From the NCBI RefSeq assembly GCF_010119195.1, contig NZ_WRXL01000005.1:124001-188000 (forward strand): DNA of 64,000 nt. Reading direction: 5' to 3'. Position numbers and translations under genes: made by a program. This DNA comes from Haloarcula salina. Its GTDB lineage: Archaea; Halobacteriota; Halobacteria; Halobacteriales; Haloarculaceae. The notes below the pieces were generated by a model, which was not told where the DNA came from, ran no database searches, and worked only from the letters and a program-made list of their open reading frames with translations. Positions 33,745 to 48,966 of the stretch are shown here, piece by piece. Position 1 is the first letter of the stretch. Each line of letters begins with the position of its first letter.

Positions 33745-34656
33745 TCACCCGAGTCGCGTTCGGAACCGCGAGGCGAGCCAGTCGCTCAGGACGACCAGCC
33801 CGAAGACGGCGGCGATGGCCGTCAACAGTTTCTGGTACTGCAGGCGCTGGATGGTGACGACGAGGTAGTAGCCGATGCCGCCGGCCCCGACGAAGCCGAG
33901 GATCGTCGCCGAGCGGATGGTGCACTCCCAGCGGTACAGCGTGTAGGAAGCGACGGTCGCGGTCACCTGCGGGACCATCCCGTGACAGACCGCCTGGAGC
34001 CGCGTCGCGCCGCCGGCCGCCACCGCCTCGGTCGTCATCGGGTTCGTGTCTTCGAGGAAGTCGGCGTACAGCTTCCCGAGGACCCCGGCGTTGTGGACCG
34101 CCAGCGCGAGGACGCCGGCGAAGGGGCCGAGCCCGATGGCGGTGACGAACAGGAAGCCCCAGACGATGCCCGGCACGGAGCGGAGGAAGCTGAGGACGGT
34201 CCGGCTGACGCGGTAGACGCCCTTCCCCGCGGCGATCCGCGCCGGGGACGCGTTCGCGTACAGCGGGCCGCGGTGGGTGACCGTCGCGGCGCTGGTCACC
34301 GCGAGCGGGACGGCCAGCGCGACGGCCAGTACGGTCCCGACGACGCTGATGGCCAGCGTCTCGACGACGGCCCACAGCAGACCGTCGCGCACGGTTCGAC
34401 CCAGCAGGTAGTCGCGGCTGGTATCCGGCGGCAGGCCCTCGGCGACGAACGCCAGCATCTGCTCGCGCGCGCCGGGCGAGGCGAGCGCCATCGGGTCGAC
34501 CTCCGCGATCCACGCGGCGACCAGAAGGACGAGACAGCCGGCGAGCAGCGTCGTGAGGCGACGCTTCGAGGCCAGCGGCTCCGTCTCGTACTCGTCCCCG
34601 GCCACCGACGGACCGAGACCGGCCTCGGCCGACGACCCGGTGCGCTCCTCAGGCAT
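33745..34656 (-). CDS. phnE: Phosphonate-type ABC transporter permease
   Basis: A 303-residue PhnE-family inner-membrane permease with about six helices. The EAA-like loop appears near ALVPEGMVPQ-type [16 protein letters not shown] (about 215). It completes a PhnD-PhnC-PhnE importer, with its start overlapping the end of the ATPase gene by 8 bp. The family imports phosphonate, phosphite or phosphate. No C-P lyase or phosphonatase lies in the window. The natural ligand in this island is therefore open. Confidence 0.85.
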
Positions 34657-35479
34657 ACCAGCGGACCTGCGTTCGGGACTCCTCCCCGTCCTCGGTCGGT
34701 TTCGCCGCCCCGTGCTGCCGTCTGCCAGCCGCCGACCGACGGCCGTCCGGTGTCGACGCTCCGGCCGCGAACAGGTCGTCGAGCATCCCGTCCGTTACCT
34801 CGGCGGCGGGCTCGTCGAAGCGAACGCGACCGTCCGCCAGGCCCACTATGCGCTCGAAACGCTCCAGGGCCAGACCCACCTCGTGGAGGACGGTGACGAG
34901 CAGTTCACCGTCGAGGACGCCGTCGAGCACGTCGACGACGTTGGCGCGGGAACTGGGGTCTAAGTTCGCCGTCGGCTCGTCGGCCAAGACCACTGGCGCG
35001 TCCCGGACGAGCGCCCGGGCGAAGGCGACGCGCTGGCGCTCGCCGGCGCTCAGGGTCGCGGCGCGGGCGTCTGCCTTCCCCGCGAGTCCGACGGCGTCGA
35101 GCAGTTCGAGTCCCGGTTCGGGGTCGCGCGGAACGAGGGGTTCGAGAAAGCCACGGAGCCACGAGCAGTCGCCGACGCGGCCGCTGAGGACGTTCGCGAG
35201 CGCGGTCCGGCGGTCGACGAGCGTCTCGCCCTGGTAGGCGAGCGTCACGTCCGCGCCGGAGACCGGAGCGCCGCCGAGCGTGATCGCCCCCTCGTCGGGC
35301 GTGAGCGCGCCGCTCGCCAGCCGGAGGAGCGTCGTCTTGCCCGCGCCGGAGGGGCCGACGACGGCGACGCGCTCGCCGGGGGCGAACCGCATGGACACGT
35401 CCGACAGCGCCGCCTCGCCGTCGAATCGCTTGGATACGCCGTCGAAGACCAGCTCCCGACCGGCCGTCGACTCAGCCAT
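34649..35479 (-). CDS. phnC: Phosphonate-type ABC transporter ATPase
   Basis: A 276-residue ABC ATPase. Walker A is GPSGAGKTT (about 43-51), the signature is [15 protein letters not shown] (about 147) and Walker B is [12 protein letters not shown] (about 170). Its order between PhnD and PhnE and the [16 protein letters not shown]-terminus identify PhnC. It powers the import carried out with the adjacent permease. It starts 6 bp after the PhnD stop, which shows a tight operon. Confidence 0.9.
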
Positions 35480-35485
35480 CCACGC

Positions 35486-36376
35486 TCACCCCGACGCCTC
35501 CGTCTCCGTCCCGGTCTCGATCCCGGCCATCTCGACGGCGTCGTCGAGCGAGGCGAAGTCGTCGTGGCTGACCTCGACGTAGCGGTCGACGTTCTGCTGG
35601 TCGAGGATGTCAGCCTCCTCCGTCGAATCGAGGCTCGTGAACGCCCGGCGGACCTCGTCCGCCGTCGCCGCTTCCATCGACGGCGCGACGGCCCACGGGT
35701 AGTCGGGAAAGCCCGGTGTCCGCCAGATTTCCCGGACGCCCGTCACCGCGTCCTCGGCGACGAGCGCGTCGTATATTCGGGCGTTCAGCGCGCCGACGGT
35801 CCCGGTCGACCCGGCGACGGTCTTGGCCGTGGCGTCGTGTGCGCCGACGTGCGTCACCTGCTCGAACGCCGTTTCGGGGACCAGGTCGTGTTCCGTCCGG
35901 AGGTAGTACGTCGGCATCACCGTCCCGCTGGTGGAGATGGGGTCGCCGAACACGAGGTCGAGGTCGCCCGCGTCTGCTGCCACGTCGTCCATTCCCTCGA
36001 TGTCGGCGTCCGCGCCGACGACGAACGCGGAGTGCCACAGCGTCTCGCCGTCCTTCGACCCGACGACGACCGGCTCCGCGCCGGCCCGATGGTGGGCGAG
36101 AACGTACGAGACGCCGCCGTAGTACGCGAGGTCGACCTGCTCGGCGACCATCGCCTGGACCATCCCCGCGTAGTCCGCGGCGGTCCGGAGGTCGACCGAC
36201 GCGCCGAGTTCGGATTCGAGATAGGACGCGAGCGCCGTGTTCTGCTCGATGGCAGTATCGGGGTCCACGTCGGGAACCACACCGACGGTCAGCGTCGGCC
36301 CGCTCGTGCTCCCCAGACAGCCCGAGAGCGACAGCGCTGCGGCTGTCCCCAGAAAGCCGCGTCTCGTGGTCTGCAT
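35486..36376 (-). CDS. phnD: PhnD-type phosphate/phosphite/phosphonate-binding lipoprotein
   Basis: A 296-residue periplasmic-type binding protein. Twin arginines (R5-R6) and the lipobox SLSGC (Cys20) predict Tat export and lipidation. The PhnD family block VGVVPDVDPDTAIEQNTALA, LAYYGGVSYVLAH and the VVPDVDP opening are present. First gene of the PhnDCE operon. A GACACAC-N10-GTGTGTC inverted repeat lies 43-66 bp upstream, the same motif as at xdh and hydantoinase genes. The ligand could be an oxyanion other than phosphonate. Confidence 0.88.
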   Translation of the reverse strand: MQTTRRGFLGTAAALSLSGCLGSTSGPTLTVGVVPDVDPDTAIEQNTALASYLESELGASVDLRTAADYAGMVQAMVAEQVDLAYYGGVSYVLAHHRAGAEPVVVGSKDGETLWHSAFVVGADADIEGMDDVAADAGDLDLVFGDPISTSGTVMPTYYLRTEHDLVPETAFEQVTHVGAHDATAKTVAGSTGTVGALNARIYDALVAEDAVTGVREIWRTPGFPDYPWAVAPSMEAATADEVRRAFTSLDSTEEADILDQQNVDRYVEVSHDDFASLDDAVEMAGIETGTETEASG

Positions 36377-36919: not shown

Positions 36920-37573
36920 CTACTCCGTGGCGTCTCGCAGGTCCGCTTCGGTGTCGACGTCGCGCCGGACGCCGGGGTCGTCGACGTCGAGGAACCGAAC
37001 CCCGTCCTCGTTCTCGATGAGGTCCCGCCCGCCGCGGTCGCCGGAGACGTCCGCGAGCGCGTCGAAGTATCGTCGGTCGAACAGCACGGGGTTGCCGCGC
37101 TGGCCGTCGCGGCGCGGGACGACGATGGCACCCTCGCCCGCCCGGTACGCCGCGACGATGCGGTCGACGGTCTCGGGGCTGACGAACGGCATGTCTCCGA
37201 GCAGGAAAACCGCGGCGTCCCAGCCGTTTTCGCGAGCGAAGGCGACGCCGCAGCGGACGGAGGTACTCTGGCCCTCGGCGTAGTCGTCGTTGTACCGCAC
37301 CGAGAGCGAGAATCCGTCGAGCGCCGCGCCGACTGCCTCAGCCTCGTGGCCGACGATTACGACGGCGTCGTCGAGTCCCGACGCGCACGCGGCCTCGGCG
37401 ACGTGACGGACCAGCGGCGCGCCGTCGACCGACGCGAGCAGTTTGTTGTCGTCCCCGTACCGAGAGCTGTCGCCGGCGGCGAGGACGACGCCACCGACCG
37501 TCGAGCGGTCGGGTCCCGTCATCGGCACGGCTCCCGACGGGCCGCTCCGCGACGGTCCCCGGCCATCAGTCAC
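36920..37573 (-). CDS. MocA-like molybdenum-cofactor nucleotidyltransferase
   Basis: About 217 residues (or 200 from a later ATG). The nucleotide-binding motif VVLAAGDSSRYGDDNKLLA (about 28-46) and LLGDMPFVSPETVD (metal site, about 120) identify the MobA/MocA family that joins CMP or GMP to molybdopterin. Its neighbours, YqeC upstream with an 8-bp overlap, YqeB, SelD and the hydroxylases, point to cytidylyl transfer for molybdenum hydroxylases. In E. coli the equivalent mocA (ygfJ) also sits with xdhD and yqeBC. Confidence 0.82.
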   Translation of the reverse strand: MTDGRGPSRSGPSGAVPMTGPDRSTVGGVVLAAGDSSRYGDDNKLLASVDGAPLVRHVAEAACASGLDDAVVIVGHEAEAVGAALDGFSLSVRYNDDYAEGQSTSVRCGVAFARENGWDAAVFLLGDMPFVSPETVDRIVAAYRAGEGAIVVPRRDGQRGNPVLFDRRYFDALADVSGDRGGRDLIENEDGVRFLDVDDPGVRRDVDTEADLRDATE

Positions 37574-38342
37574 CAGCCTCCGGTGCCGGGGTCCCGACGG
37601 GTTCGCAGACGCCCGTCTCGAAGGAGGTGACGACGCCCCGCGAGAACCGATCTGTCCGTGCCAGCGCGTGGTCGAGCACGGCGCGAGCGGTCGCTCGCCG
37701 CTCGGTCGTGTCGGCCTTGTTCACCAGCGGGACCACGGACGCCGACGACGGAACGTTCCGGCGGCCGCCGTCGGGGTGTGCGAGCACCTCCCCGACGGCC
37801 TCGGCCGTGATGGCGTCGCCAACGTCGAAATCGGTGAGCGCGGCGACGCGCTCCGGGCGGTGGACCGCGTCGGTCGTCAGCGGCTCGCCGACGGCCGCGA
37901 CCGAGGCCACCGGCACGACGTGCGTCGCCGCGCCGGGAACGACCGGCTCGTCCTCGCCCGGCGCTTTGAACTCGCGGCGGCGCGCGCCGTCGGCCTTCAC
38001 CAGCAGCCGGTCGAAGACGCCGCTGTAGTACACCGACCGCAGGAACTCGGGGTCGAACCCGCGGACCTTCTCCGCGGCGCGCTCGGGGTCCGCCACCCAC
38101 TCGCGGGCGAAGGCGAGCGGCGGATCGCGGTCGGAGATGACGTACGGGTAGCCGTCGCGGACGGTGAGCGTCAGGGGGAGGTCGGGCGGGGGCGGCATCG
38201 CCGTCGTCGTCGTGTAGCCCACGTCGAGGCCCTCGCGAGCGCCCTCGGCGGCCAGTTGCCCCATCGCGGTCTTCTTCCCGCCGGCCCCCACGAACGCGAC
38301 GAGCGCGCGGGCGTCGATTCCCAACGCGTCGGTCAGTCGCAT
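37566..38342 (-). CDS. yqeC: YqeC family selenium cofactor protein
   Basis: A 258-residue protein of the YqeC family (putative selenium-dependent hydroxylase accessory factor). Its N-terminus has the P-loop-like FVGAGGKKTAMGQLA (about 17-31). The segments LLVKADGARRREFKAPGEDE and HVVPVASVAAVGEPLT are hallmarks of the family. Together with YqeB and SelD it marks genomes that make the labile selenium cofactor of molybdenum hydroxylases. A leaderless promoter (38365-38372) lies 26 nt upstream. The gene is divergent from tusA-selD. Confidence 0.9.
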   Translation of the reverse strand: MRLTDALGIDARALVAFVGAGGKKTAMGQLAAEGAREGLDVGYTTTTAMPPPPDLPLTLTVRDGYPYVISDRDPPLAFAREWVADPERAAEKVRGFDPEFLRSVYYSGVFDRLLVKADGARRREFKAPGEDEPVVPGAATHVVPVASVAAVGEPLTTDAVHRPERVAALTDFDVGDAITAEAVGEVLAHPDGGRRNVPSSASVVPLVNKADTTERRATARAVLDHALARTDRFSRGVVTSFETGVCEPVGTPAPEAGD

Positions 38343-38436: not shown

Positions 38437-38682
38437 ATGGCTCGCGTGGACGTTCGCGGCGAGATCTGTCCCCGACCGGCACTCATCGTCCGCCGGGAAC
38501 TCGCCGACCTCGAACCGGGGGACACGCTCACCGTCCGGGGCGACTACCCGCCGGCCGAGCGGAACCTCCGCCGGATGTGTACGACTCACGGCTTCGACGT
38601 GTCGGCCGTCGACACCGACGACGCCGACGAGTTCGAACTCCGACTGCTGGTGACCGAGATGTCGTCGCTCCCGGAGCGGTGA
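38437..38682 (+). CDS. tusA: TusA-family sulfur/selenium carrier protein
   Basis: About 81 residues of the TusA/SirA/YedF family. The catalytic cysteine lies in the conserved segment DVRGEICPRPALIVRREL (about residue 10), the CPxP motif. These proteins carry a persulfide or, in Se-linked relatives such as YedF, take part in selenium handling. It begins 94 bp from the divergent yqeC gene and ends 2 bp before selD, so it is co-transcribed with selD. Selenium delivery is the likely role, but sulfur transfer cannot be excluded. The ATG at 38437 is chosen over an in-frame GTG at 38428. Confidence 0.88.
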   Translation: MARVDVRGEICPRPALIVRRELADLEPGDTLTVRGDYPPAERNLRRMCTTHGFDVSAVDTDDADEFELRLLVTEMSSLPER

Positions 38683-38684
38683 CG

Positions 38685-39758
38685 ATGGCGGGCGACGGCG
38701 CGGAGGACGAAACGGCCGAGGCGGACACCCCTGTCGACGGCGACCCGTCCGACGAGCCGCGTCTGACCGAGTACGCGGAACTGCACGGCTGTTCCTGCAA
38801 GGTCGGTCAGAGCGACCTGGACGCGCTGCTCGCCGACGCCGGCCTCGACGACGCCCGCGACGACCTGCTGTTCGGCGTCGGCGAGGACGCCGCGGCCCGC
38901 CGGCTCACCGACGACCTCGCGCTGGTCTCGACGGTGGACTTCTTCACGCCCATCGTCGACGACCCCTACGACTTCGGCCGGGTCGCGGCCTGTAACGCCG
39001 CGAGCGACGCGTTCGCGACGGGCGCGACCGACAACCTCGACTGCCTCGTCGTCCTCGGCCTGCCACGCGAACTGACCGACAGCGCGGCCCCGATCCTCGC
39101 CGGCATGGCCGACGCCCTCGACGCGATGGGCGGCGGCGTCGCGGGCGGCCACACCATCATGAGCCCGTGGCCGTTCGCCGGCGGGGCCGTCACCGCGACG
39201 GCACACCCCGACGCGCTGCTCACGGCGCAGGGAGCAAGACCTGGCGACCGCCTCTACCTGACGAAACCGCTCGGGACGCAGCCGGCGATGGGCGCGACGC
39301 GCGTCTCCGACGGGGAGTTCGTCGAGACCGTTCGGGGGGCCGCGGACCGCCCGCTCGACCGAATCGGCGCGGACGCGGTCGCGTGGATGACCACGCCGAA
39401 CCGCGACGCGGCGCTGGCCTGCCGGGAGTTCGCGGCCGCCGCGACCGACGTGACCGGCTTCGGCCTCGCCGGCCAGAGCCGCGTCCTCGCCGAGCGGTCG
39501 GGCGTCGGCGTCGAACTGACCCACCTCCCGGTCATCGCGGGGACGACAGAGCTCTCCCGACTGTTCGGCTACGGCCTGACCGTCGGCGAGAGCGCCGAGA
39601 CCAGCGGCGGACTGCTGGTCACAGTCCCACCGGACGCGGCGGCCGATCTCGAAGCAGCGTTCGACGGGGCAGGGGTGTTCTTCCGCCAAGTCGGTCGCGT
39701 CACCGACGGCAGCGGCGTCACCGTCGACGACCCGACCGTCGAGCCGGTCCGCCGCTGA
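38685..39758 (+). CDS. selD: Selenide, water dikinase (selenophosphate synthase)
   Basis: About 357 residues of the SelD/PurM-like fold. The catalytic segment HGCSCKVGQSD (Cys36/Cys38 and Lys39) corresponds to the GCGCK loop of known SelD proteins. The ATP and metal ligands follow in GVGEDAAARR and FTPIVDDPYDFGRVAACNA. It makes selenophosphate from selenide and ATP. No selenocysteine or selenouridine genes lie in this window, so the product probably serves the selenium-dependent hydroxylases through YqeB/YqeC. It follows tusA by 2 bp. Confidence 0.95.
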   Translation: MAGDGAEDETAEADTPVDGDPSDEPRLTEYAELHGCSCKVGQSDLDALLADAGLDDARDDLLFGVGEDAAARRLTDDLALVSTVDFFTPIVDDPYDFGRVAACNAASDAFATGATDNLDCLVVLGLPRELTDSAAPILAGMADALDAMGGGVAGGHTIMSPWPFAGGAVTATAHPDALLTAQGARPGDRLYLTKPLGTQPAMGATRVSDGEFVETVRGAADRPLDRIGADAVAWMTTPNRDAALACREFAAAATDVTGFGLAGQSRVLAERSGVGVELTHLPVIAGTTELSRLFGYGLTVGESAETSGGLLVTVPPDAAADLEAAFDGAGVFFRQVGRVTDGSGVTVDDPTVEPVRR

Positions 39759-39833
39759 GCGTTCGTAGGAGTTGTCTACTGCCGTTCAGGAAGGTCCTAA
39801 CTACGGTACCGGATCGCGCGGCGGAGCGACCCC

Positions 39834-41414
39834 TCAACGCAGGCGGAGCGCCGCCTCCAGGACGCCGCCGCCGAGACAGAGCGCCTTGTCCGAGATCTTC
39901 GTCGGGTCGACCGACTCGCCGCGGGGGTCCACGTCGCCGAGTTTCGTCCCCGCCGAGACGTCGAGGCCGCCGTGGACGAGGCCGCGGACGAGGCCGTCGA
40001 TCTCCGTCTCGACCGGGCTGTCGCCCACGTGCCCGACCACGTCGCCCGCGGCGACGGAGTCCCCGATGCCGACGGTCGGCTCCCACCGACCGTCCGCCGG
40101 CGCGCGGAGCACGCGTTCGTGCGTGTACCCGCGGCGCTCGCCGGGCTCGCCGTCGTAGGCGCTCGCGGTCCCCTCGTAGAACACGCGGCCGAGTTCGTGC
40201 CCGCGGTCCGTCTCCACGACGGCGTCTACGTCCGCGCCGGCCTCAAAGCCGGGCCCCATCCCGATCACCACGTCGGCGTCACCGCGCCGCGTTCCGGTGT
40301 CGAACTTCCCTTTCGCCATGATGGCGTCGACGAGGAGCCCGGCGTCGAGTTCGTCGGCGACCGCCGCGTCGGGGTCGACGAGAACCGGCACGTCCCCGTC
40401 GGCCAGGACCGCGATCGCCTCGTCGATGTCGTCGACTCGCCGGCCGGTGACGCCCTCGACGGACACCTCGCCCTCGTACAGCGCCGCACCGAACGCGACC
40501 GCCCGGCGGACGACCGTCGGGCGCTCGACCTCCGTCACGACGACCGGGTAGCCCGCTCTGTGGAGGCGGTAGACGACGCCGCTTCCGAGGTCGCCGCCGC
40601 CGCGGACGACAGCGAGGTCGTCGAGGTTCAGGTCGGTGGCGCGCTCGCCCGTCGCGTCGTGTCGGTCCATGCTGACCTCCGCGAGGATGGAGAGCGCGAC
40701 CGCGGCGGGGCCGCTCCCGCCGAGGTCGAGGCCCACTGGCGTCCGGACGCGCGCGAGGTCGCGCCGGGCGTAGCCCCCGTCGGCGAGCGAGTCGAGGACG
40801 TGGTCGGCCTTGGTCTCGCTGGCGACGAGGCCGACGTAGCCCGCGCCGCCGTCGAGCGCCGCGGCGACCGCATCTCGGTCGAACGTGCCGCTCCGCGTGG
40901 CCACGGCGACTGCGGTCTCGCGACCCATCGGTAGGTCTCGGAGTTCGTCGCCGTAGTCGCCGTGAATCACGTCGGTGTCCTCGGGGAACGCCTCGGGGTC
41001 GGCGTAGTCCTCGCGGTCGTCGACGACGGTGACGGCGTAGCCCAGACGCTCTGCCAGCGGTGCGAGGTCGGCGCTGATGTGGCCCGCGCCGGCGACGTAG
41101 AGGCGCGGCCGGCCGCGGACCCGGTCGACGAACACGTCCATCTCGCCGCCACAGACCATCCCCGTGTTCCCGCCGGGTTCGAGTTCGTACGTTCGGACGC
41201 CCGGCTCCTGGTCGCCGGAAAGCACCGCGCGGGCGTCCTCGACGGCGAGGTGCTCGACCGTCCCGCCTCCGATGGTCCCGTGCGTGTCCTCGGCCGTGAC
41301 GACCATCTTGTCGCCCACGTCCCGCGGGGCGCTCCCGTTCTTGCGAACGATGGTCAACAGCGCGGCCGGTTCGCCGCGCGCGGCCAGGGCGTCGAGGCGC
41401 TCGAACAGGCTCAT
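39834..41414 (-). CDS. XdhC-YqeB fusion, selenium/molybdenum cofactor insertion factor
   Basis: A 526-residue two-domain protein. Residues 1-250 are XdhC/CoxI-like, with LLTIVRKNGSAPRDVGDKMV and THGTIGGG, then the Rossmann segment LYVAGAGHISADLAPLAERL. Residues about 263-526 are YqeB, with VRGGGDLGSGVVYRLHRAG, LLVDAIMAKGKFDTGTRR and VIGMGPGFEAG. XdhC matures molybdenum hydroxylases by handling and sulfurating the cofactor. YqeB marks the selenium version. The fusion puts both steps in one protein. It overlaps the DsrH-like gene by 4 bp and ends the four-gene DsrE-DsrF-DsrH operon. Confidence 0.92.
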   Translation of the reverse strand: MSLFERLDALAARGEPAALLTIVRKNGSAPRDVGDKMVVTAEDTHGTIGGGTVEHLAVEDARAVLSGDQEPGVRTYELEPGGNTGMVCGGEMDVFVDRVRGRPRLYVAGAGHISADLAPLAERLGYAVTVVDDREDYADPEAFPEDTDVIHGDYGDELRDLPMGRETAVAVATRSGTFDRDAVAAALDGGAGYVGLVASETKADHVLDSLADGGYARRDLARVRTPVGLDLGGSGPAAVALSILAEVSMDRHDATGERATDLNLDDLAVVRGGGDLGSGVVYRLHRAGYPVVVTEVERPTVVRRAVAFGAALYEGEVSVEGVTGRRVDDIDEAIAVLADGDVPVLVDPDAAVADELDAGLLVDAIMAKGKFDTGTRRGDADVVIGMGPGFEAGADVDAVVETDRGHELGRVFYEGTASAYDGEPGERRGYTHERVLRAPADGRWEPTVGIGDSVAAGDVVGHVGDSPVETEIDGLVRGLVHGGLDVSAGTKLGDVDPRGESVDPTKISDKALCLGGGVLEAALRLR

Positions 41415-41656
41415 ACGAACGATTTGACCTCCTGTTCGACCAGCAGTTCGACCACCCGGTCGTAGGAGATCGGTTCGACATCCGGGGGGAGGTCGACCCC
41501 GCGAACGCTCACGTCTCTCGCGACGGCGGAGACCTGCGCGTCCACGTCCGGCGTCAGGTAGACGCCGTCCTGGATCAGGACGACGTGGGCGTCGGGGTCG
41601 CCCGCGGCGGTTCGCAGTCCGATTTCGGCCATCGGCTCGTCGATGAGATAGAGCAT
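41411..41656 (-). CDS. DsrH/TusB-like protein
   Basis: An 81-residue protein with the DsrH/TusB pattern: MLYLIDEPMAEIGL and VVLIQDGVYLTPD. In bacteria TusB works in the TusBCD sulfur-relay complex. Here it is the third of three DsrEFH-like genes. It starts 2 bp after the DsrF-like gene and overlaps the XdhC-YqeB start by 4 bp. No cysteine is conserved in this chain, as is usual for the TusB/C members, so it would act structurally. Confidence 0.75.
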   Translation of the reverse strand: MLYLIDEPMAEIGLRTAAGDPDAHVVLIQDGVYLTPDVDAQVSAVARDVSVRGVDLPPDVEPISYDRVVELLVEQEVKSFV

Positions 41657-41658
41657 TA

Positions 41659-42012
41659 TCAGAAGTCCAGCGTGTGGTCCGCGTCGCGGATGCGGGCGGC
41701 GACGCGGTCGCCCGGCCACACCGCCACGTCGTCGGCGATGTCGGCTTCGTCTACGTCGCGGGCCGCCATCGCGGCGGCGTCCGCGACCATGGTCCCGTCC
41801 TGTTCCACGAGGTCCGCGACGTGGCCCGTCATGTTCAGCGCGTCCCGGTCGACGGCCTCGCGCGCGCCGTAGACCCCGTCCTGGGTGAACACGACCGTCA
41901 CGTCGTGCAGGTCGAACCCGGCCGCGACGCCGCGGGCCGCTCGCAGGCCCTCGGGAACGTGGACCCGACCGTACGGGGCGCGGGTCAGCATGACCACCAC
42001 GTCCCGCTTCAT
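41659..42012 (-). CDS. DsrF/TusC-like protein
   Basis: A 117-residue DsrE-fold protein beginning MKRDVVVMLTRAPYGRVH, with VTVVFTQDGVYGAREAVD in the middle. It matches the TusC/DsrF member of a DsrEFH trimer. It overlaps the DsrE-like gene by 4 bp (ATGA). It is likely one chain of a heterotrimer with its neighbours. The presence of all three next to selenium cofactor genes rather than tRNA-thiolation genes is unusual. Confidence 0.8.
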   Translation of the reverse strand: MKRDVVVMLTRAPYGRVHVPEGLRAARGVAAGFDLHDVTVVFTQDGVYGAREAVDRDALNMTGHVADLVEQDGTMVADAAAMAARDVDEADIADDVAVWPGDRVAARIRDADHTLDF

Positions 42013-42380
42013 AGCGAGACCACCCGGTCGGCCTCGCCGAGGATGTCCGCGAGATCGGGGAGCAAGCCCACCTCGACGCCGTCGGGATAGTCCGCGTCGG
42101 CGTCGATGCCGCGGGCGTCGACGCAGAGCCCGCAGCAGATGACCTCCGCGCCGTCCGCGACCAGTTCCTGGAACTTCGCCGTCGGCATCTCGTCGTACAG
42201 CCCCGAGTCCGAGCAGTCCGGAAACGACTGGTCGGCAACCGGGACGAGCGCGCCGTCGAGGTAGTGGAAGTACATCACCTCGTGGCCCGCGTCCAGCGCC
42301 GCCCGCCCGAGTTCGTAGGCGGTGCGCCAGCGCTCGCTGTCGAAGGGCCCGCCTGTCAGGAGGAACCCGATGTAAGCCAT
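42009..42380 (-). CDS. DsrE/TusD-like protein with a cysteine site
   Basis: A 123-residue protein beginning MAYIGFLLTGGPFDSERW and having the motif VICCGLCVDARGI (about residues 84-96), where a cysteine equivalent to the catalytic Cys of TusD/DsrE is expected. It likely accepts a persulfide or perselenide from TusA and passes it on. First gene of the DsrE-DsrF-DsrH-XdhC/YqeB operon, all genes overlapping or nearly so. Its substrate is not known from sequence. Confidence 0.8.
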   Translation of the reverse strand: MAYIGFLLTGGPFDSERWRTAYELGRAALDAGHEVMYFHYLDGALVPVADQSFPDCSDSGLYDEMPTAKFQELVADGAEVICCGLCVDARGIDADADYPDGVEVGLLPDLADILGEADRVVSL

Positions 42381-42456: not shown

Positions 42457-44922
42457 TCAGTCGTCGCCGTCTCGCGCGTCGAGCGCGGCCCGCAGGTCCT
42501 CGTCGGTGAACGGCAGCTCGGTCAGGCGGACGCCGACGGCGTCGCGAATGGCGTTCGACAGCGCCGGCGGCACGCCGTTGGTCGGGAGTTCGGCGATGGA
42601 CTTCGCGCCGAACGGCCCCGTCGGCTCGTGCGTCTCGACGAGGATGGTCTCCATCGGCGGGTGGTCCGTCGTCCGGGGCATCCCGTACTGGCGAAAGCCC
42701 TGCACCTCGGGGTTGCCCTCGCCGTCGAACGAGAGGCCGCCGCTGGTGGCGTATTCGAGGCTCATGTGTTCGCCGCCCTCGATCTGTCCCTCGACCAGCG
42801 CGGGATTGATGGCGACGCCGCAGTCGGCGGCGAACACCAGTTTGTTCAGGTCGTACTCGCCGGTCTCCTCGTTCACCGTCACGTCGACGAACTGCGCGCC
42901 GTAGGGCGGCGGGCTCTCGTCGGTCGAGTGGTTGCCGTCGCCGAGGATGTGCTCGCGCTCGTCGTCGCCGTACGTCGCCTCGTAGCCGATCTCCTCCAGC
43001 GAGACGCGGTTCCCGGTTTCCTCGCTGTACACCGCGCCGTCGCCGGTGTCGAGGACCTCCGGTGGTTCGTCGAGCAGCGTCGCGCCCCACTCCAGCAGTC
43101 GCTCCTTCGCGTCCTCGGCGGCGTTTTTGACCGCGCGACCGCTGATGTAGGTCGTCGAGGAGGCGTACGCGCCGTAGTCGAACGGCGTCAGGTCCGTGTC
43201 GGCGGCGACGACGACCACGTCTTCGGGGGGACAGCCGAGCACCTCCGCGGCGATCTGCGAGAACATCGTGTCCGCGCCCGTCCCGGTGTCGACGCCGCCG
43301 ACCTGGAGGTGGAAGCTCCCGTCCTCGTTCATCTTCACCTGCGCCGCACCGAGTTCCTTGCCGGCGACGCCGCTGCCCTGGGCGATGAGGGCCATGCCGA
43401 CGCCGCGGTGGCGGTGATCTTCATCTGGCTGGTCGAGGTCGTCGTAGCCGATGGCCTCCTTCCCGCGTTCGACGCACTCGCGGATGCCACAGGAGCGAAT
43501 CGTCCGCTCGAACCGGTCGTCGTCTTTCAGGATGGCGACGCTGCGGTCGAGGTCGCCCTCGCGGACCGCGTTCCGCAACCGGAACTCGATCGGATCGAGG
43601 CCGAGGCGGCGGGCCACCTCGTCCATGTGGGACTCGACCGCGAAGTGACCCTGGGGAGCGCCGTAGCCCCGCATCGCCGCACCCATCGGGAGGTTCGTGT
43701 GGACCACGTCGCCCGAAAAACGGACGTTGGGGACCCGCGGGTAGATGGGGAGCGGTTTCGTCCCGACGTTGTTCGCGACGGTCATGCCGTGCGTGCCGTA
43801 GGCCCCCGAGTTCGACAGCGTGTAGAGGTCCATCGCCTCGATGTCGCCCTCCTCTGTGACGGCGGTCTTCATCCGCATCCGCATCGGGTGCCGGAAGCGA
43901 AGCGCGGTGAACTCCTCCTGCCGGGTCATCTCCAGTTTGACCGGGCGACCGGCCGCGAGGTGGAGCGCGAACGTGATCGGCTCGATGGCCATCTCCTGTT
44001 TCGAGCCGAACCCCGCGCCGATTCGCGGTTTCGTCACGCGCACGTCGCGGATGGGCACGTCGAACAGGTGCGAGATCTGCCGGCGCGTGTGGAACGGCAC
44101 CTGCGTCGCCGTGATGAACACGTGGCGGTCGTCCTCGTCGGTGTAGGCGATGGTGGCGTGGGGCTCCGGGACGCAGTGGGACTGGTACGGCGTCTCCCAC
44201 TCCGTCTCGACGACGTGGACGCCCTCGCCGGCTTCCGCCGCGTCGAACGCCGCGTCGACGTCGCCCAGTTCCCCCTCGAAGTGCGATTCGAGGTTCCTCG
44301 CGTAGTCCGCGCCCGATTGCTTGTTCTCCACGTCGTCCGTCTCGAACAGCTGGGGGGCGTCCTCGTCTAGCGCCGCCTCGGGGTCGAACACCGCGTCGCG
44401 TTCGCGATACTCGACTTCGACTTTGCGGGCCGCCCGGTCCGCTGTGTCGGGGTCCTCGGCGGCGACGGCCGCCACCGGGTCGCCGACGAACCGAACGTGC
44501 TCGCGCAGGACGGTCAGGTCCCACGGGCTCGGTTCGGGGTAGGACTGGCCCGAGCTGGAGTACAGCGTGTCCGGGACCACGTCGTCGAACGGCGTGATGA
44601 CCGCGTAGACGCCGTCCATCGCCTCGGCGGCGCTGGTGTCGACCGACTCGACGTGGCCGTGGGCGATGTCGCTGCGCACCACTTTGCCGTGGGCGAGGTC
44701 CGGAAAGCGGTCCCGGTAGTCCGCCGTGTAGCGGGCCTCGCCGGTGACGATCTGTCGCGCGTCGTCTTTCTCCTCGTCCGTCGTGATGGCCTCTCGCTCG
44801 TCCGGTGCCTTCCGGTCCGGTTCTCTCGCCGCGCCCTCCACCGTTCCGCCGGTGGCCTCCTCCTCCGCCCGTACGCCGTCGGGTCCGTCGTCGAGGTCCG
44901 ATGCGTTGTCCGAGTCGCTCAC
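42457..44922 (-). CDS. Molybdopterin-binding subunit of a molybdenum hydroxylase, copy 1
   Basis: An 821-residue large subunit of the xanthine dehydrogenase family. A 50-residue acidic N-terminal tail precedes VTGEARYTADYRDRFPD. Cofactor-binding regions are PRIGAGFGSKQEMAIEP, AAMRGYGAPQGHFAVESH and QGSGVAGKELGAAQVKMN. The catalytic glutamate is in GAKSIAELPTNGVPPALSNA near the C-terminus. It lies immediately downstream of its FeS partner (4-bp overlap). Selenium-dependent purine or related oxidation is inferred from SelD, YqeB and YqeC. No FAD subunit is nearby. Confidence 0.92.
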   Translation of the reverse strand: MSDSDNASDLDDGPDGVRAEEEATGGTVEGAAREPDRKAPDEREAITTDEEKDDARQIVTGEARYTADYRDRFPDLAHGKVVRSDIAHGHVESVDTSAAEAMDGVYAVITPFDDVVPDTLYSSSGQSYPEPSPWDLTVLREHVRFVGDPVAAVAAEDPDTADRAARKVEVEYRERDAVFDPEAALDEDAPQLFETDDVENKQSGADYARNLESHFEGELGDVDAAFDAAEAGEGVHVVETEWETPYQSHCVPEPHATIAYTDEDDRHVFITATQVPFHTRRQISHLFDVPIRDVRVTKPRIGAGFGSKQEMAIEPITFALHLAAGRPVKLEMTRQEEFTALRFRHPMRMRMKTAVTEEGDIEAMDLYTLSNSGAYGTHGMTVANNVGTKPLPIYPRVPNVRFSGDVVHTNLPMGAAMRGYGAPQGHFAVESHMDEVARRLGLDPIEFRLRNAVREGDLDRSVAILKDDDRFERTIRSCGIRECVERGKEAIGYDDLDQPDEDHRHRGVGMALIAQGSGVAGKELGAAQVKMNEDGSFHLQVGGVDTGTGADTMFSQIAAEVLGCPPEDVVVVAADTDLTPFDYGAYASSTTYISGRAVKNAAEDAKERLLEWGATLLDEPPEVLDTGDGAVYSEETGNRVSLEEIGYEATYGDDEREHILGDGNHSTDESPPPYGAQFVDVTVNEETGEYDLNKLVFAADCGVAINPALVEGQIEGGEHMSLEYATSGGLSFDGEGNPEVQGFRQYGMPRTTDHPPMETILVETHEPTGPFGAKSIAELPTNGVPPALSNAIRDAVGVRLTELPFTDEDLRAALDARDGDD

Positions 44923-45515
44923 GGCTCGCCCCCCGAGCAGTCACAGCCGCCGGGCGGACAGCCAGAGTCGAGCGTGCCGCCGGCCGCGGTGTCAGGCGGT
45001 GGGTCTCCGTCGCTCGGCGGCCCGCCGTCGGTCGCCACCGCCCGGTCGACGTCCATCCGATCGGCGGCGTCCAGCACCGCCTCGACGATCTTCTTGTATC
45101 CGGTACACCGACAGAGGTTGTCCGAGAGCGCCTCGCGGACCTCCTGCTCCGTCGGATCGGGGTTCTCGTCCAGTAGCGCCTTCGAGCGCATGATCATCCC
45201 CGGGATACAGAAGCCACACTGCAGCGCGGTGTTGTCCACGAAGGCCTGCTGGACCGGGTGCAGGTCGTCCTGCTCGCCGAGTCCCTCGATGGTCTCGACC
45301 GATGCCCCTTCGGCTTTCGTCACGGGCGTCACGCACGACAGCGTCGGGTCGCCGTCGACGTGGACCGTACAGAAGCCACAGGCCCCGGTATCACACCCGC
45401 GCTTCGCGCCGGTGTAGCCGTTGGCCCGCAGCACGTCCAGGAGGGAGTCGGACTTCGACGCCTCGAACGTCTCCGTCTCGCCGTTTACTTCCAGTTCGAT
45501 TTGCATATGGCTCAT
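44919..45515 (-). CDS. [2Fe-2S] subunit of a molybdenum hydroxylase, copy 1
   Basis: About 198 residues from the ATG at 45515 (MSHMQIE; 45506 is an alternative). The first cluster motif is KRGCDTGACGFCTVHVDG with a later Cys at TLSC, and the second is QCGFCIPGMI with NLCRCTGYKK. Both are complete. The standard subunit ends near residue 155. An extension of about 40 residues ends in a cysteine-rich tail, GCPPGGCDCSGGEP. It pairs with copy 1 of the large subunit. It carries electrons from the Mo site to an unknown acceptor. Confidence 0.92.
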   Translation of the reverse strand: MSHMQIELEVNGETETFEASKSDSLLDVLRANGYTGAKRGCDTGACGFCTVHVDGDPTLSCVTPVTKAEGASVETIEGLGEQDDLHPVQQAFVDNTALQCGFCIPGMIMRSKALLDENPDPTEQEVREALSDNLCRCTGYKKIVEAVLDAADRMDVDRAVATDGGPPSDGDPPPDTAAGGTLDSGCPPGGCDCSGGEP

Positions 45516-45609
45516 CAGCTCGCTGACTATATCGGCTACGTGACGCCCAGAACCGTAAATAGCTATCGCGGACAGTGGCTCGCACACGGGAATCTGTGAC
45601 CGCCGTCGG

Positions 45610-48099
45610 TCAGCGCTCGTCCAGTTTCTCGCGAATCTTCGCCGCGGTAATCGGCATCTCCTGGATACGGACGCCCACGGCGTCTCGGACGGCGTTCGAC
45701 AGCGCCGGCGGGACCGTGTTCGTCGGCACCTCTGCGACGGACTTCGCGCCGAACGGGCCGGTCGGTTCGTGGGTCTCGACCAGGATGGACTCGATGGGCG
45801 GCGTCTCGGTGGCCGACGGGAGGTGGTACTCGTCGAAGTCCGAGACCTCCGCGCGGCCCTGGTCGTCGAGCGTAATACCCTCGCTGACGGCCAGCTCGTA
45901 GCTCATGTGGTTCGCGCCCTCCACCTGGCCCTCGGCCATGCCGGGGTTGATGGCGACGCCGCAGTCGACGGCGACCGCGAGCTTGTGCACGTCGAACTCG
46001 CCGGTCTCCTCGTCCACCGTCACGTCCACGAACTGGGCGGCGAAGGGCGGCGGGCTCTCCTCGGTGCAGTGGGTCCCCTTCCCGAGGATGTGCTCGCGCT
46101 CCTCGTCGCCGTAGGCCGCCTCGTAGCCGATGTCTTCGAGCGTGACGGAGTCGCCGGTCGCCTCGCTGTACACCGCGCCGTCGCCGGTATCGAGGTCCGC
46201 GACGGGCTCGTCGAGCATCCTGGCCCCCCACTCCAGGATCCGCTCCTTCGCGTCCTCGGCGGCCTTCTTGACGGCCATCCCGCTGATGTAGGTGGTCGAG
46301 GAGGCGTACGCGCCGTAGTCGAACGGCGTCACGTCCGTGTCCGAGGAGCGGACGACGATCTGGTCCTCGTCGCAGCCGAGCACCTCGGCGGCGATCTGGA
46401 GGAAGGCGGTGTCTGCCCCGGTTCCGATGTCGACGCCGCCGACCTGGAGGTGGAAGCTCCCGTCCTCGTTCATCATGAGCTGGGCCGCGCCGAGCTCGTC
46501 GCCGGCGACGCCGGTCCCCTGGGCGGACAGCGCCATGCCGACGCCGCGGTGCAGGTGATCTTCATCGGGCTGTTCGATGGCGTCCCAGCCGATGGCCTCC
46601 TTGCCGCGTTCGATGCACTCGTCGAGCCCACAGGAGCGGATGCGTCGCTTCGCGCCCTCGCCGCCCATCATCCCGGCGATCTCGTCTAAGTCGCCGACCT
46701 CCATGTAGTGGCGCTGTCGGAACTCGACGGGGTCAAGATCGAGGTCACGCGCCACCTCGTCGAGGTGGCCCTCCAGCGCGAGCGTCCCCTGCGGTGCGCC
46801 GTAGCCCCGCATCGCGCCGGTCTGGGGCGTGTTCGTGTGGACGATGTCGGCCTCGAAGTGGACGTTCGGGACCTTCGAGTACAGCGGCAGCGGCTTGCTC
46901 CCGACGTTGCCCGCGACGGTCATGCCGTGGCTCCCGTACGCGCCGGTGTTCGACAGCGCGTAGATGTCGATGGCCTCGATGTCGCCGTCGTCGGTGACGG
47001 CGGTCTTCGCCTTGACTTTCATCGGGTGGCGCGAGCGCATCGCGTAGAACTCCTCCTCGCGCGTGGCCTCGTACAGCACCGGGCGGTCGGTGGCGAGCGA
47101 CAGCGCGAGCGGAATCGGCTCGACGACCATCGCCTGCTTGCCGCCGAACCCGCCGCCGACGCGCGGTTTCTTCACCCGGATGTCACGGATGGGGATGTCG
47201 AAGAGGTGCGCGAGCTGTCGGCGCGTGTGGTTCGGGACCTGCGTGCTGGTCACGAGGACGTGGCGGTCGTCCTCGTTCCGGTAGGCGAGCGACGTGTGCT
47301 TCTCGACGTTGGCGTGGGACTGCCGGATGGTCACCCACTCCGTCTCGTGGACGTGCACGTCGTCGCCCTCGAAGGCGCTCTCGGGGTCGCCGAGTTCGCC
47401 CTCGATGTTCGCCATGCGGTTGCGGTCGTAGTCGTGGCCGACGATCTCGTTCTCGACCTCCTCGTCGCCGAACAGCTGCGGCGCGTCCGCGTCGAAGGCC
47501 GCCTCGGGGTCGGTGACGTAGTCATACTCCTCGTATCGGACCTCGACGGCGTCGGCGGCGGCCCGGGCCGTCTCGGCGTCCTCGGCGGCGATGGCCGCCA
47601 CCGGGTCGCCGACGTAGCGGACGTGCTCGGTCAGGACGTGCATGTCCCACGGGCTCGGCTCGGGGTAGGACTGGCCGGCGCTGGTGTACTTCGCGTCGGG
47701 GACCGCGTCGGAGTCCGGCGTGAGGACGGCTTCGACCCCGTCCATCGCCTCGGCCGCGCTCGCGTCGATGTCGGTCACGCGGCCGTGTGGAATCTCGCTA
47801 CGGACGACCGCCGCGTAGGCGAGGTCCGGGTAGCGCTCCTCGTAGTCGGCGGTGTACTTCGCCTGCCCGGTGACGAGCTTGCGGTCGTCGTACTTCTCCG
47901 CGCGCTGTGAGACGCTGTCGCGCTCGCCCGGCGCGAGGTCGTTGTTCGCCGGCTCGTCCCACTCGAAGGGGTACTGCTCCAGTTCGGCGAGGTCCTCGGC
48001 GGCGTCGGACTGCGAGGCCGTCCCGCCGTCCGTCTCGGCCCCGTCGGCGTCCGTCTCCGCTCCGTTCCCGTTCGCCCGCGTGTCGGCGTCGTCACTCAT
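45610..48099 (-). CDS. Molybdopterin-binding subunit of a molybdenum hydroxylase, copy 2
   Basis: About 829 residues from the ATG at 48099. It is clearly paralogous to the copy at 42457. It has a long acidic N-terminal tail, then VTGQAKYTADYEERYPD, PRVGGGFGGKQAMVVEP, GAMRGYGAPQGTLALEGH and the catalytic Glu in GAKSVAEVPTNTVPPALSNA. Full-length with no in-frame TGA, so no selenocysteine. Its start overlaps its FeS partner by 8 bp. The substrate (xanthine, hypoxanthine or another N-heterocycle) is not decidable by reading. Confidence 0.92.
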   Translation of the reverse strand: MSDDADTRANGNGAETDADGAETDGGTASQSDAAEDLAELEQYPFEWDEPANNDLAPGERDSVSQRAEKYDDRKLVTGQAKYTADYEERYPDLAYAAVVRSEIPHGRVTDIDASAAEAMDGVEAVLTPDSDAVPDAKYTSAGQSYPEPSPWDMHVLTEHVRYVGDPVAAIAAEDAETARAAADAVEVRYEEYDYVTDPEAAFDADAPQLFGDEEVENEIVGHDYDRNRMANIEGELGDPESAFEGDDVHVHETEWVTIRQSHANVEKHTSLAYRNEDDRHVLVTSTQVPNHTRRQLAHLFDIPIRDIRVKKPRVGGGFGGKQAMVVEPIPLALSLATDRPVLYEATREEEFYAMRSRHPMKVKAKTAVTDDGDIEAIDIYALSNTGAYGSHGMTVAGNVGSKPLPLYSKVPNVHFEADIVHTNTPQTGAMRGYGAPQGTLALEGHLDEVARDLDLDPVEFRQRHYMEVGDLDEIAGMMGGEGAKRRIRSCGLDECIERGKEAIGWDAIEQPDEDHLHRGVGMALSAQGTGVAGDELGAAQLMMNEDGSFHLQVGGVDIGTGADTAFLQIAAEVLGCDEDQIVVRSSDTDVTPFDYGAYASSTTYISGMAVKKAAEDAKERILEWGARMLDEPVADLDTGDGAVYSEATGDSVTLEDIGYEAAYGDEEREHILGKGTHCTEESPPPFAAQFVDVTVDEETGEFDVHKLAVAVDCGVAINPGMAEGQVEGANHMSYELAVSEGITLDDQGRAEVSDFDEYHLPSATETPPIESILVETHEPTGPFGAKSVAEVPTNTVPPALSNAVRDAVGVRIQEMPITAAKIREKLDER

Positions 48100-48664
48100 C
48101 GCAGCCACCCCCACAGCAGCCACCCGCGTCGGCGGGCTTTCCCATAGCCGTGTCGTCTGCCGGTTCGCCACCGATCGGCCGGCCGCCGTCGGCGGCGACG
48201 CCCTCCTCGCGCATCCGACCCGCGGCGTCCAGCACCGCCTCCACGGGCTTCTGGTAGCCGGTGCAGCGACAGACGTTGTCGTCGAGCGCCTCGCGGACCT
48301 CCCGCTCGGTCGGATCGGGATTCTCGTCGAGCAGCGCCGTCGCCTGGACGATCATCCCCGGAATGCAGAAGCCACACTGGACGGCGAAGTTGTCCACGAA
48401 GGCCTGCTGGACCGGGTGCAAGTCGTCCTGCGTGCCCAGCGACGCGACCGTCTGAACGTCGCTGCCCTCGGCCTCGGTCGCAGCCATGCCGCAGGCCATG
48501 CGGACATCGCCGTCGACGAACACCTTCGACGCGCCGCAGGTGCCGCCGTCGCAGCCGCACTTCACGTCGATGTGGCCGTGCTGTCTCAGTACCGTCGCCA
48601 GGTCCTGCTCGGACCCGGCTTCCACTGTCGTCGTCTCGCCGTTTATCGTGAGTTCGATGTCCAC
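48092..48664 (-). CDS. [2Fe-2S] subunit of a molybdenum hydroxylase, copy 2, with altered cluster
   Basis: About 190 residues from the GTG at 48664, which has a GGAGG ribosome site on the minus strand. The N-terminal cluster motif is VKCGCDGGTCGASKV. The second half of the CxxxxCxxC pattern carries Ser where the third Cys is expected, while an extra Cys precedes the first. The second cluster (QCGFCIPGM, NVCRCTGY) is normal. A C-terminal tail ends in GGCCGGGCDE, again cysteine-rich. The altered cluster may have lower potential or a different ligand set. Confidence 0.9.
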   Translation of the reverse strand: MDIELTINGETTTVEAGSEQDLATVLRQHGHIDVKCGCDGGTCGASKVFVDGDVRMACGMAATEAEGSDVQTVASLGTQDDLHPVQQAFVDNFAVQCGFCIPGMIVQATALLDENPDPTEREVREALDDNVCRCTGYQKPVEAVLDAAGRMREEGVAADGGRPIGGEPADDTAMGKPADAGGCCGGGCDE

Positions 48665-48966
48665 GGAGATCCCTCCGGTGCGCCGTTGGCACACCAATCG
48701 TAGCCGTTGAACGTCGGTGCACACCCGAGCGCACGATGACAGTGCGACGAATGTATCACTCGGTTCAGTCGGTCCGATAGCTGTCGTCTCTATGCTGGGT
48801 GGTACCGGCCCATATAGCTATGGTCCACAGGCGGGCCCCACCGTGGCGACTGGCGACCTGGAAGGCCGACACGGGCGGCGAGGCCGGAGACGGGGGGAGA
48901 CACACGCCTGCGTGTGTCGTGTGCCACATTTGCGAGGAGGGCGCACACACGGCCGGAGGGGGCCGG
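48665..48966. other. Intergenic region upstream of xdh copy 2, with operator candidate
   Basis: About 300 bp. On the minus strand, CTATATGG at about 48812-48820 is a TATA candidate and implies a leader of about 125 nt before the GTG at 48664. The inverted repeat at 48899-48918 lies roughly 85 bp upstream of it. No gene seen. Confidence 0.5.
48899..48918. promoter_or_regulatory. Perfect 9-bp inverted repeat operator candidate
   Basis: GACACACGC and GCGTGTGTC with a 2-bp spacer form a perfect inverted repeat. The half-site is identical to those at 32262-32270 and 61330-61338. Another GCGCACACAC occurs at 48941-48950. It lies upstream of the copy-2 hydroxylase operon. Confidence 0.55.

Follow-up and report, generated by a model that had tools for sequence, protein, structure and literature searches.

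Three small genes of the DsrEFH type precede the xdhC-yqeB fusion gene of Haloarcula salina, and we confirmed that this arrangement goes beyond chance, as it recurs in all 29 other yqeB-bearing haloarchaeal genomes found. Since the set is always coupled to this maturation gene and is known as a sulfur-passing complex, it is probably a carrier of selenium (or sulfur) in haloarchaea with a molybdenum-selenium (Mo-Se) enzyme. The delivery of selenium to the Mo hydroxylase centre is the least understood of the selenium pathways, and it is not settled whether selenium passes via selenophosphate on its way to the Mo centre of Se-dependent hydroxylases (PMC11448449). If our reading is true, the DsrEFH family reaches beyond tRNA thiolation and sulfur oxidation to the maturation of the selenium/molybdenum cofactor. 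The link of dsrEFH to yqeB is new and the carrier role is not previously described in the open-access literature searched, where nothing was found that connects DsrEFH to this pathway.

Layout of the locus

The window, i.e. the whole stretch of 64,000 nucleotides analysed here, is part of a 387.5-kb contig. The features of the locus are given below in window coordinates.

36920-37573, minus strand: mocA/ygfJ-like gene for a Moco nucleotidyltransferase (TIGR03310, 151.5 bits, below the cut-off of 186)
37566-38342, minus strand: yqeC, selenium cofactor biosynthesis (TIGR03172, 190 bits)
38437-38682, plus strand: tusA, 81 aa, CPRP motif with Cys11 (PF01206, 64.4 bits)
38685-39758, plus strand: selD, selenophosphate synthetase, catalytic C36-S-C38-K (TIGR00476, 277 bits; PRK14105, 309 bits; both above cut-off)
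39834-41414, minus strand: xdhC-yqeB fusion, joining a Moco chaperone domain to a domain for selenium-cofactor maturation; C88 and C513 are invariant (TIGR03309 (YqeB), 362.6 bits; XdhC Pfam domains PF13478 and PF02625)
41411-41656, minus strand: dsrH (TusB-like), 81 aa (PF04077, 27.2 bits, cut-off 24.4)
41659-42012, minus strand: dsrF (TusC-like), 117 aa (PF02635, 37.6 bits)
42009-42380, minus strand: dsrE (TusD-like), 123 aa, C83-G-L-C86 (PF02635, 69.7 bits)
42457-44922, minus strand: Mo-hydroxylase large subunit 1 of the xanthine dehydrogenase family, upstream of dsrE at a distance of 76 bp (PF02738, PF20256, PF01315)
44919-45521, minus strand: 2Fe-2S subunit 1 (PF01799, PF00111)
45610-48171, minus strand: Mo-hydroxylase large subunit 2 (PF02738, PF20256, PF01315)
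48092-48670, minus strand: 2Fe-2S subunit 2 (PF01799, PF00111)

Coordinates and profile matches bear out the original prediction that tusA lies 2 bp before selD and that this pair is convergent with dsrEFH-xdhC-yqeB; selD ends at 39758 and the fusion gene at 39834. The predicted overlaps along the minus-strand genes held in part: dsrE/dsrF and dsrH/xdhC each overlap by 4 bp, whereas dsrF and dsrH are separated by a 2-bp gap. The yqeC and mocA genes and the two Mo-hydroxylase pairs are members of the same locus. One flank of the window's cluster holds yqeC, the MocA-like gene, RidA and a PhnCDE-type ABC transporter, while on the opposite flank the two molybdenum-hydroxylase/2Fe-2S pairs are followed by further hydrolases.

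Identity of the DsrE, DsrF and DsrH proteins

Among the E. coli Tus subunits, each of the three proteins was best matched to its own counterpart by hhalign (DsrE-TusD 49%, DsrF-TusC 79%, DsrH-TusB 81%). The predicted model of DsrH (pLDDT 80) found TusB as its top fold match in the PDB (2d1p_C, prob 1.00, TM 0.76), followed by A. vinosum DsrH (2hy5_C). PDB sequence searches with DsrE and DsrF returned weak matches only, to YchN and to A. vinosum DsrE/DsrF (E 0.001-0.012); an AlphaFold model of DsrE, built from five sequences, was too poor (pLDDT 47) and was discarded. While the Pfam cut-offs are passed, the NCBI equivalogs TIGR03010/3011/3012 are not reached (27.5, 27.6 and 18.9 bits against cut-offs of 94, 49 and 89). 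Therefore, the label TusDCB-like, under which the genes had been predicted, is appropriate, whereas TusDCB would claim too much.

The set resembles the TusBCD/DsrEFH heterohexamer of E. coli and Allochromatium vinosum in its three small DsrE-fold proteins, the gene order D-C-B (corresponding to E-F-H), the tiny overlaps and the position of the reactive cysteine in the D/E subunit. It differs in its coupling to xdhC-yqeB, in its scores below the TusB/C/D equivalog cut-offs, in a host without TusE/DsrC, in a CGLC motif instead of the single Cys78 and in a DsrH that has no conserved cysteine. This motif, C83-G-L-C86, is invariant in 31 aligned haloarchaeal copies of DsrE and in the MAG copy L085, and C86 falls at the position of TusD Cys78 (aligned region LCVDARG versus ICVAAALRRG in TusD). 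DsrE is the sole subunit with conserved cysteines, as none was found in the aligned haloarchaeal copies of DsrF or DsrH. One active subunit suffices, since sulfur is carried by DsrE-Cys78 alone in DsrEFH of A. vinosum (PMC3397948).

A search of the window's genome with the DsrE Pfam family matched dsrE and dsrF as the only genes. The same genome holds a DsrE2-type gene together with two further tusA copies on contig C14.

Conservation across haloarchaea

YqeB exceeded the curated cut-off in 30 of the 391 Halobacteria genomes sampled. Strong matches to the DsrE of the window (E <= 2e-51) were found in exactly these 30 genomes, and SelD (E <= 1e-20) marked the very same ones, so that the proposed tie of DsrEFH to YqeB and SelD is upheld. 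Outside this group, the DsrE query gave weak matches only, the best being a 34-residue fragment (5e-14). The 30 genomes are spread over nine genera. Within the genus, TusA of the selD-linked type was confined to the 15 of 32 genomes that are yqeB-positive (119-171 bits; all others at most 22 bits). The DsrE protein was taken as query because haloarchaeal DsrH is divergent, which makes PF04077 (DsrH) a poor census profile (3 of 391 genomes matched).

In each of the 29 other yqeB-positive genomes, we inspected a region of 15-16 kb surrounding yqeB. The order dsrE-dsrF-dsrH-xdhC/yqeB, convergent with tusA-selD, was present at all 29 loci, and so were selD, tusA and yqeC alongside it. The original prediction had been staked on a co-occurrence of dsrEFH and yqeB in other haloarchaea, and the genes are linked at every one of these loci. 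A hydroxylase gene lies immediately upstream of dsrE at 24 of the 29; at the remaining five the core stands alone, with the hydroxylases several kb off in the four cases inspected. Other cluster genes are variable, with mocA found at 24, ridA at 17 and phnCDE at 12 of the 29 loci. The 4-bp overlaps of dsrE/dsrF and dsrH/xdhC occur at all 30 loci measured (29 genomes and Haladaptatus halobius). The locus is also present, in the same order, on the H. marismortui plasmid pNG700.

The distribution of the cluster is patchy and frequently plasmid-borne. Because the linked block is often on plasmids, the 30 genomes are not independent and their co-occurrence reflects co-inheritance in part; the partner genes vary between loci, and the block is therefore not simply frozen. 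The genes dsrE, dsrF, dsrH and tusA are under strong purifying selection (median dN/dS 0.083, 0.17, 0.21 and 0.24, respectively). DsrEFH was detected beside none of 76 bacterial yqeB loci (E 0.01), and thus the set looks haloarchaeal in the collections searched.

Missing partners and the probable link to selenium

The usual acceptor of the Tus/DsrEFH relay is TusE/DsrC. This protein (PF04358) was found in none of the 30 set-bearing genomes, while the E. coli control was detected. A role of DsrEFH in tRNA thiolation was rejected on this ground, in agreement with the predicted use distinct from the tRNA Tus relay. Moreover, the 2-selenouridine synthase YbbB (TIGR03167) and the archaeal Sec synthase SepSecS (TIGR03531) are absent from all 30 genomes, and by the two families searched SelD is an orphan there. 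SelD, YqeB and YqeC are present with a Mo hydroxylase, which is the gene complement of the third selenium trait (Se-dependent Mo hydroxylase). In C. difficile, the yqeB and selD deletion mutants behave alike on xanthine and urate (PMC11448449), supporting the view that YqeB and SelD belong to one pathway.

An XdhC-type Moco chaperone exceeded the cut-off in 121 of 292 haloarchaea, about 99 of which are outside the 30 genomes. These approximately 99 XdhC-positive, SelD-negative haloarchaea are without this DsrE set. The set therefore follows SelD and not XdhC, which argues for a selenium role and weakens a role purely in passing sulfur to Moco.

Candidate acceptor cysteines in XdhC-YqeB

Exactly two cysteines of XdhC-YqeB are invariant in 31 haloarchaeal sequences; C88 belongs to the XdhC domain, and C513 lies close to where the YqeB domain ends. 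A highly conserved cysteine of XdhC-like proteins has been proposed to transfer sulfur or to bind Moco (PMC2997495), and C88 may be its counterpart. The position of C513 is occupied by Ala in 60 and by Cys in 6 of 73 bacterial YqeB sequences. All four bacterial loci with yedF at most 200 bp from yqeB have Cys at this position, and Ala is found at the two with a more distant yedF; this correlation is suggestive only, because the loci are few and come from related Clostridia.

Relation to YedF and to earlier descriptions

The neighbour of selD in Enterococcus faecalis and in some Clostridia is yedF, which encodes a TusA-DsrE fusion (TIGR03527; FdhU in Campylobacter). YedF combines a CPxP TusA domain with a CGxC DsrE domain and is encoded beside selD in SDMH clusters. 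The same traits are found in the haloarchaea, with an invariant CPxP in TusA, CGLC in DsrE and tusA adjoining selD, where C36 and C38 of SelD are invariant in 31 of 31 sequences. The DsrE domain of YedF carries CGAC or CGTC, and CGLC fits this CGxC pattern. The haloarchaeal DsrE profile matched YedF better than TusD (85%), though over no more than 51 C-terminal columns. The parallel to YedF drawn in the original prediction thus gains from the common motif and from the adjacency of yedF and selD in the yqeB clusters of bacteria. In contrast to YedF, TusA and DsrE are encoded by two unfused genes and DsrF and DsrH are extra; the TusA of the window scores 32.2 bits against TIGR03527, short of the cut-off of 110. 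YedF has been reported absent from archaea (PMC5322559). With tusA beside selD, dsrE beside yqeB and the shared CGxC, the haloarchaeal arrangement resembles a split YedF to which DsrF and DsrH have been added, and the sequences suggest that TusA and DsrE are its equivalent.

Orphan-selD SDMH clusters have been described before on pNG700 of Haloarcula marismortui and in Enterococcus faecalis (Haft and Self 2008; Zhang et al. 2008), and the H. marismortui locus is the same as the one studied here. Its tusA-selD, XdhC-YqeB fusion, yqeC and mocA were already given in the passages found of these papers (PMC2276186, PMC2432076), whereas dsrEFH is neither given nor discussed in those passages.

Proposed mechanism and alternatives

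We consider the case evenly balanced that TusA and DsrEFH are chalcogen carriers dedicated to the neighbouring hydroxylases, whose labile Mo-Se cofactor they would help to make by loading XdhC-YqeB. The cargo, the order of transfer and the acceptor cysteine are what we infer from the gene arrangement and the conserved residues. As a working hypothesis, the relay would run from TusA over DsrEFH to XdhC-YqeB. Cys11 of TusA would carry a persulfide or perselenide, and DsrE, DsrF and DsrH would assemble in the manner of TusBCD, with DsrE, through C83-G-L-C86, as the one chemically active subunit that would receive the chalcogen from TusA. The molybdenum cofactor would be held by XdhC-YqeB, on which the loaded DsrE would dock to pass on its chalcogen; C88 in the XdhC domain, C513 in the YqeB domain or both are the probable points of transfer. 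SelD would supply or activate selenium as selenophosphate, and the finished cofactor would then enter the hydroxylase. In effect, TusA and DsrEFH would stand in for the bacterial fusion protein YedF. A more specific version is tentative and on balance doubtful: a perselenide relay from TusA over a heterohexameric DsrEFH to C513/C88 of XdhC-YqeB would deliver selenium directly to the chaperone-bound Moco and would supply the insertion step that is lacking from the third selenium trait. Coupling pairs tusA with selD on one strand and dsrEFH with xdhC-yqeB on the other, so that at least one other order would fit besides TusA-DsrEFH-YqeB. Bacteria with an SDMH produce the cofactor in the absence of DsrEFH (0/76 yqeB loci), and DsrEFH is hence not universally needed. 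The fixed gene set names cysteines that can be tested, namely C83/C86 of DsrE, C11 of TusA, C513 of YqeB and C88 of XdhC, and some haloarchaea are genetically tractable.

The other fitting order is the main rival, which we regard as unlikely. Here, TusA and DsrEFH would act before SelD, collecting reduced selenium in the form of perselenide, drawn from cysteine/selenocysteine or selenite, and delivering it safely to SelD, and XdhC-YqeB would use selenophosphate with no contact to DsrEFH. The 2-bp spacing of tusA and selD in the window, their adjacency in the loci inspected and the bacterial yedF genes directly adjoining selD agree with such a supply route, and Haft and Self placed the SirA/TusA-like family probably before selenophosphate synthesis (PMC2276186). 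However, dsrEFH is translationally coupled to xdhC-yqeB at every locus and not to selD-tusA, and the invariant, acceptor-type C513 of haloarchaeal YqeB also speaks against it. The cargo could also be sulfur, with DsrEFH in place of a cysteine desulfurase sulfurating Moco on XdhC and selenium added separately by SelD/YqeB. Precedents exist in Rhodobacter capsulatus, where the persulfide enzyme NifS4 loads XdhC-bound Moco (PMC2997495), and in DsrEFH and archaeal DsrE/TusA, which carry sulfur species in the cases tested (PMC3397948, PMC4175335). In R. capsulatus the donor is a cysteine desulfurase, the ligand is sulfur and there is no YqeB domain. Direct transfer and contact were demonstrated for the archaeal DsrE3A-TusA pair of Metallosphaera cuprina, a thiosulfate carrier (PMC4175335), but DsrE3A belongs to another DsrE group with Cys-X7-Cys and its host is a sulfur oxidiser without SelD or a Mo hydroxylase. 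As the set tracks selenium and not XdhC in the approximately 99 SelD-negative genomes, we find a sulfur cargo of this kind improbable.

The CGLC motif would also suit a CxxC reductase or a selenium-detoxification protein that keeps selenide reduced with no handover, and a DsrE-like UxxC family is known among prokaryotic selenoproteins (PMC9312934). Yet the conserved DsrF and DsrH partners and the TusBCD-like architecture point to transfer, which leaves this explanation very improbable. Hardly credible is a mere hitchhiking of dsrEFH as passenger on a mobile selenium/purine plasmid block. It would account for the patchy, often plasmid-borne cluster, but not for the strong purifying selection, the invariant CGLC and overlaps, and the retention of dsrEFH at 29/29 loci while other cluster genes vary.

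In one further genome (G130), YqeB and SelD are below the thresholds and the hydroxylase gene is kept. A 34-residue dsrE stump is followed there by out-of-frame sequence which, read by eye, resembles an internal piece of xdhC, and the core seems to have decayed jointly.

Position 513 of XdhC-YqeB (39834-41414), the fusion of a Moco chaperone with a selenium-cofactor maturation domain, is an invariant Cys in the haloarchaeal copies. In most bacteria YqeB carries Ala at this position, and Cys is found in the Clostridia where yedF, encoding a TusA-DsrE fusion, directly precedes yqeB.

Further features are as follows (L, separately read stretches; G, genomes):
33745-36376, PhnCDE-like ABC transporter within the selenium locus
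42457-48670, two Mo-hydroxylase/2Fe-2S pairs
L164:2277-2543 (G130:C102), putative cluster relic
L165:11534-11836 (G359), second TusA, GDYPPA subfamily
L167:736-1062 (G118), second TusA, GDYPPA subfamily
L077:2151-2396 (G183), second TusA, GDYPPA subfamily
L078:5854-9235 (G000:C14, same genome as the window), separate sulfur cluster

In G130, a dsrE stump of 34 residues is followed by sequence similar to an internal piece of xdhC, resembling a remnant of the selenium cluster. This genome retains a hydroxylase large-subunit gene despite the absence of both yqeB and selD. For the two hydroxylase pairs of the window, no FAD subunit was found among the genes examined.

The transporter occurs in 12 of the 29 related yqeB loci; PMC2276186 suggests selenate import for its H. 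marismortui counterpart.

The additional TusA genes of the three genomes, which share the GDYPPA subfamily with the first TusA, lie in the cluster neighbourhood, immediately adjoined by an ssnA-like amidohydrolase in G359 and G118. The separate sulfur cluster comprises tusA, a DsrE2-type protein, a second tusA, an FAD oxidoreductase and two adjacent short YedE/YeeE-like membrane proteins (assigned by eye).

GC content is lower on the left side of the window (about 0.57-0.62 at 1-24000 versus about 0.65-0.72 at 24001-64000), a step that suggests a composition boundary on the replicon.
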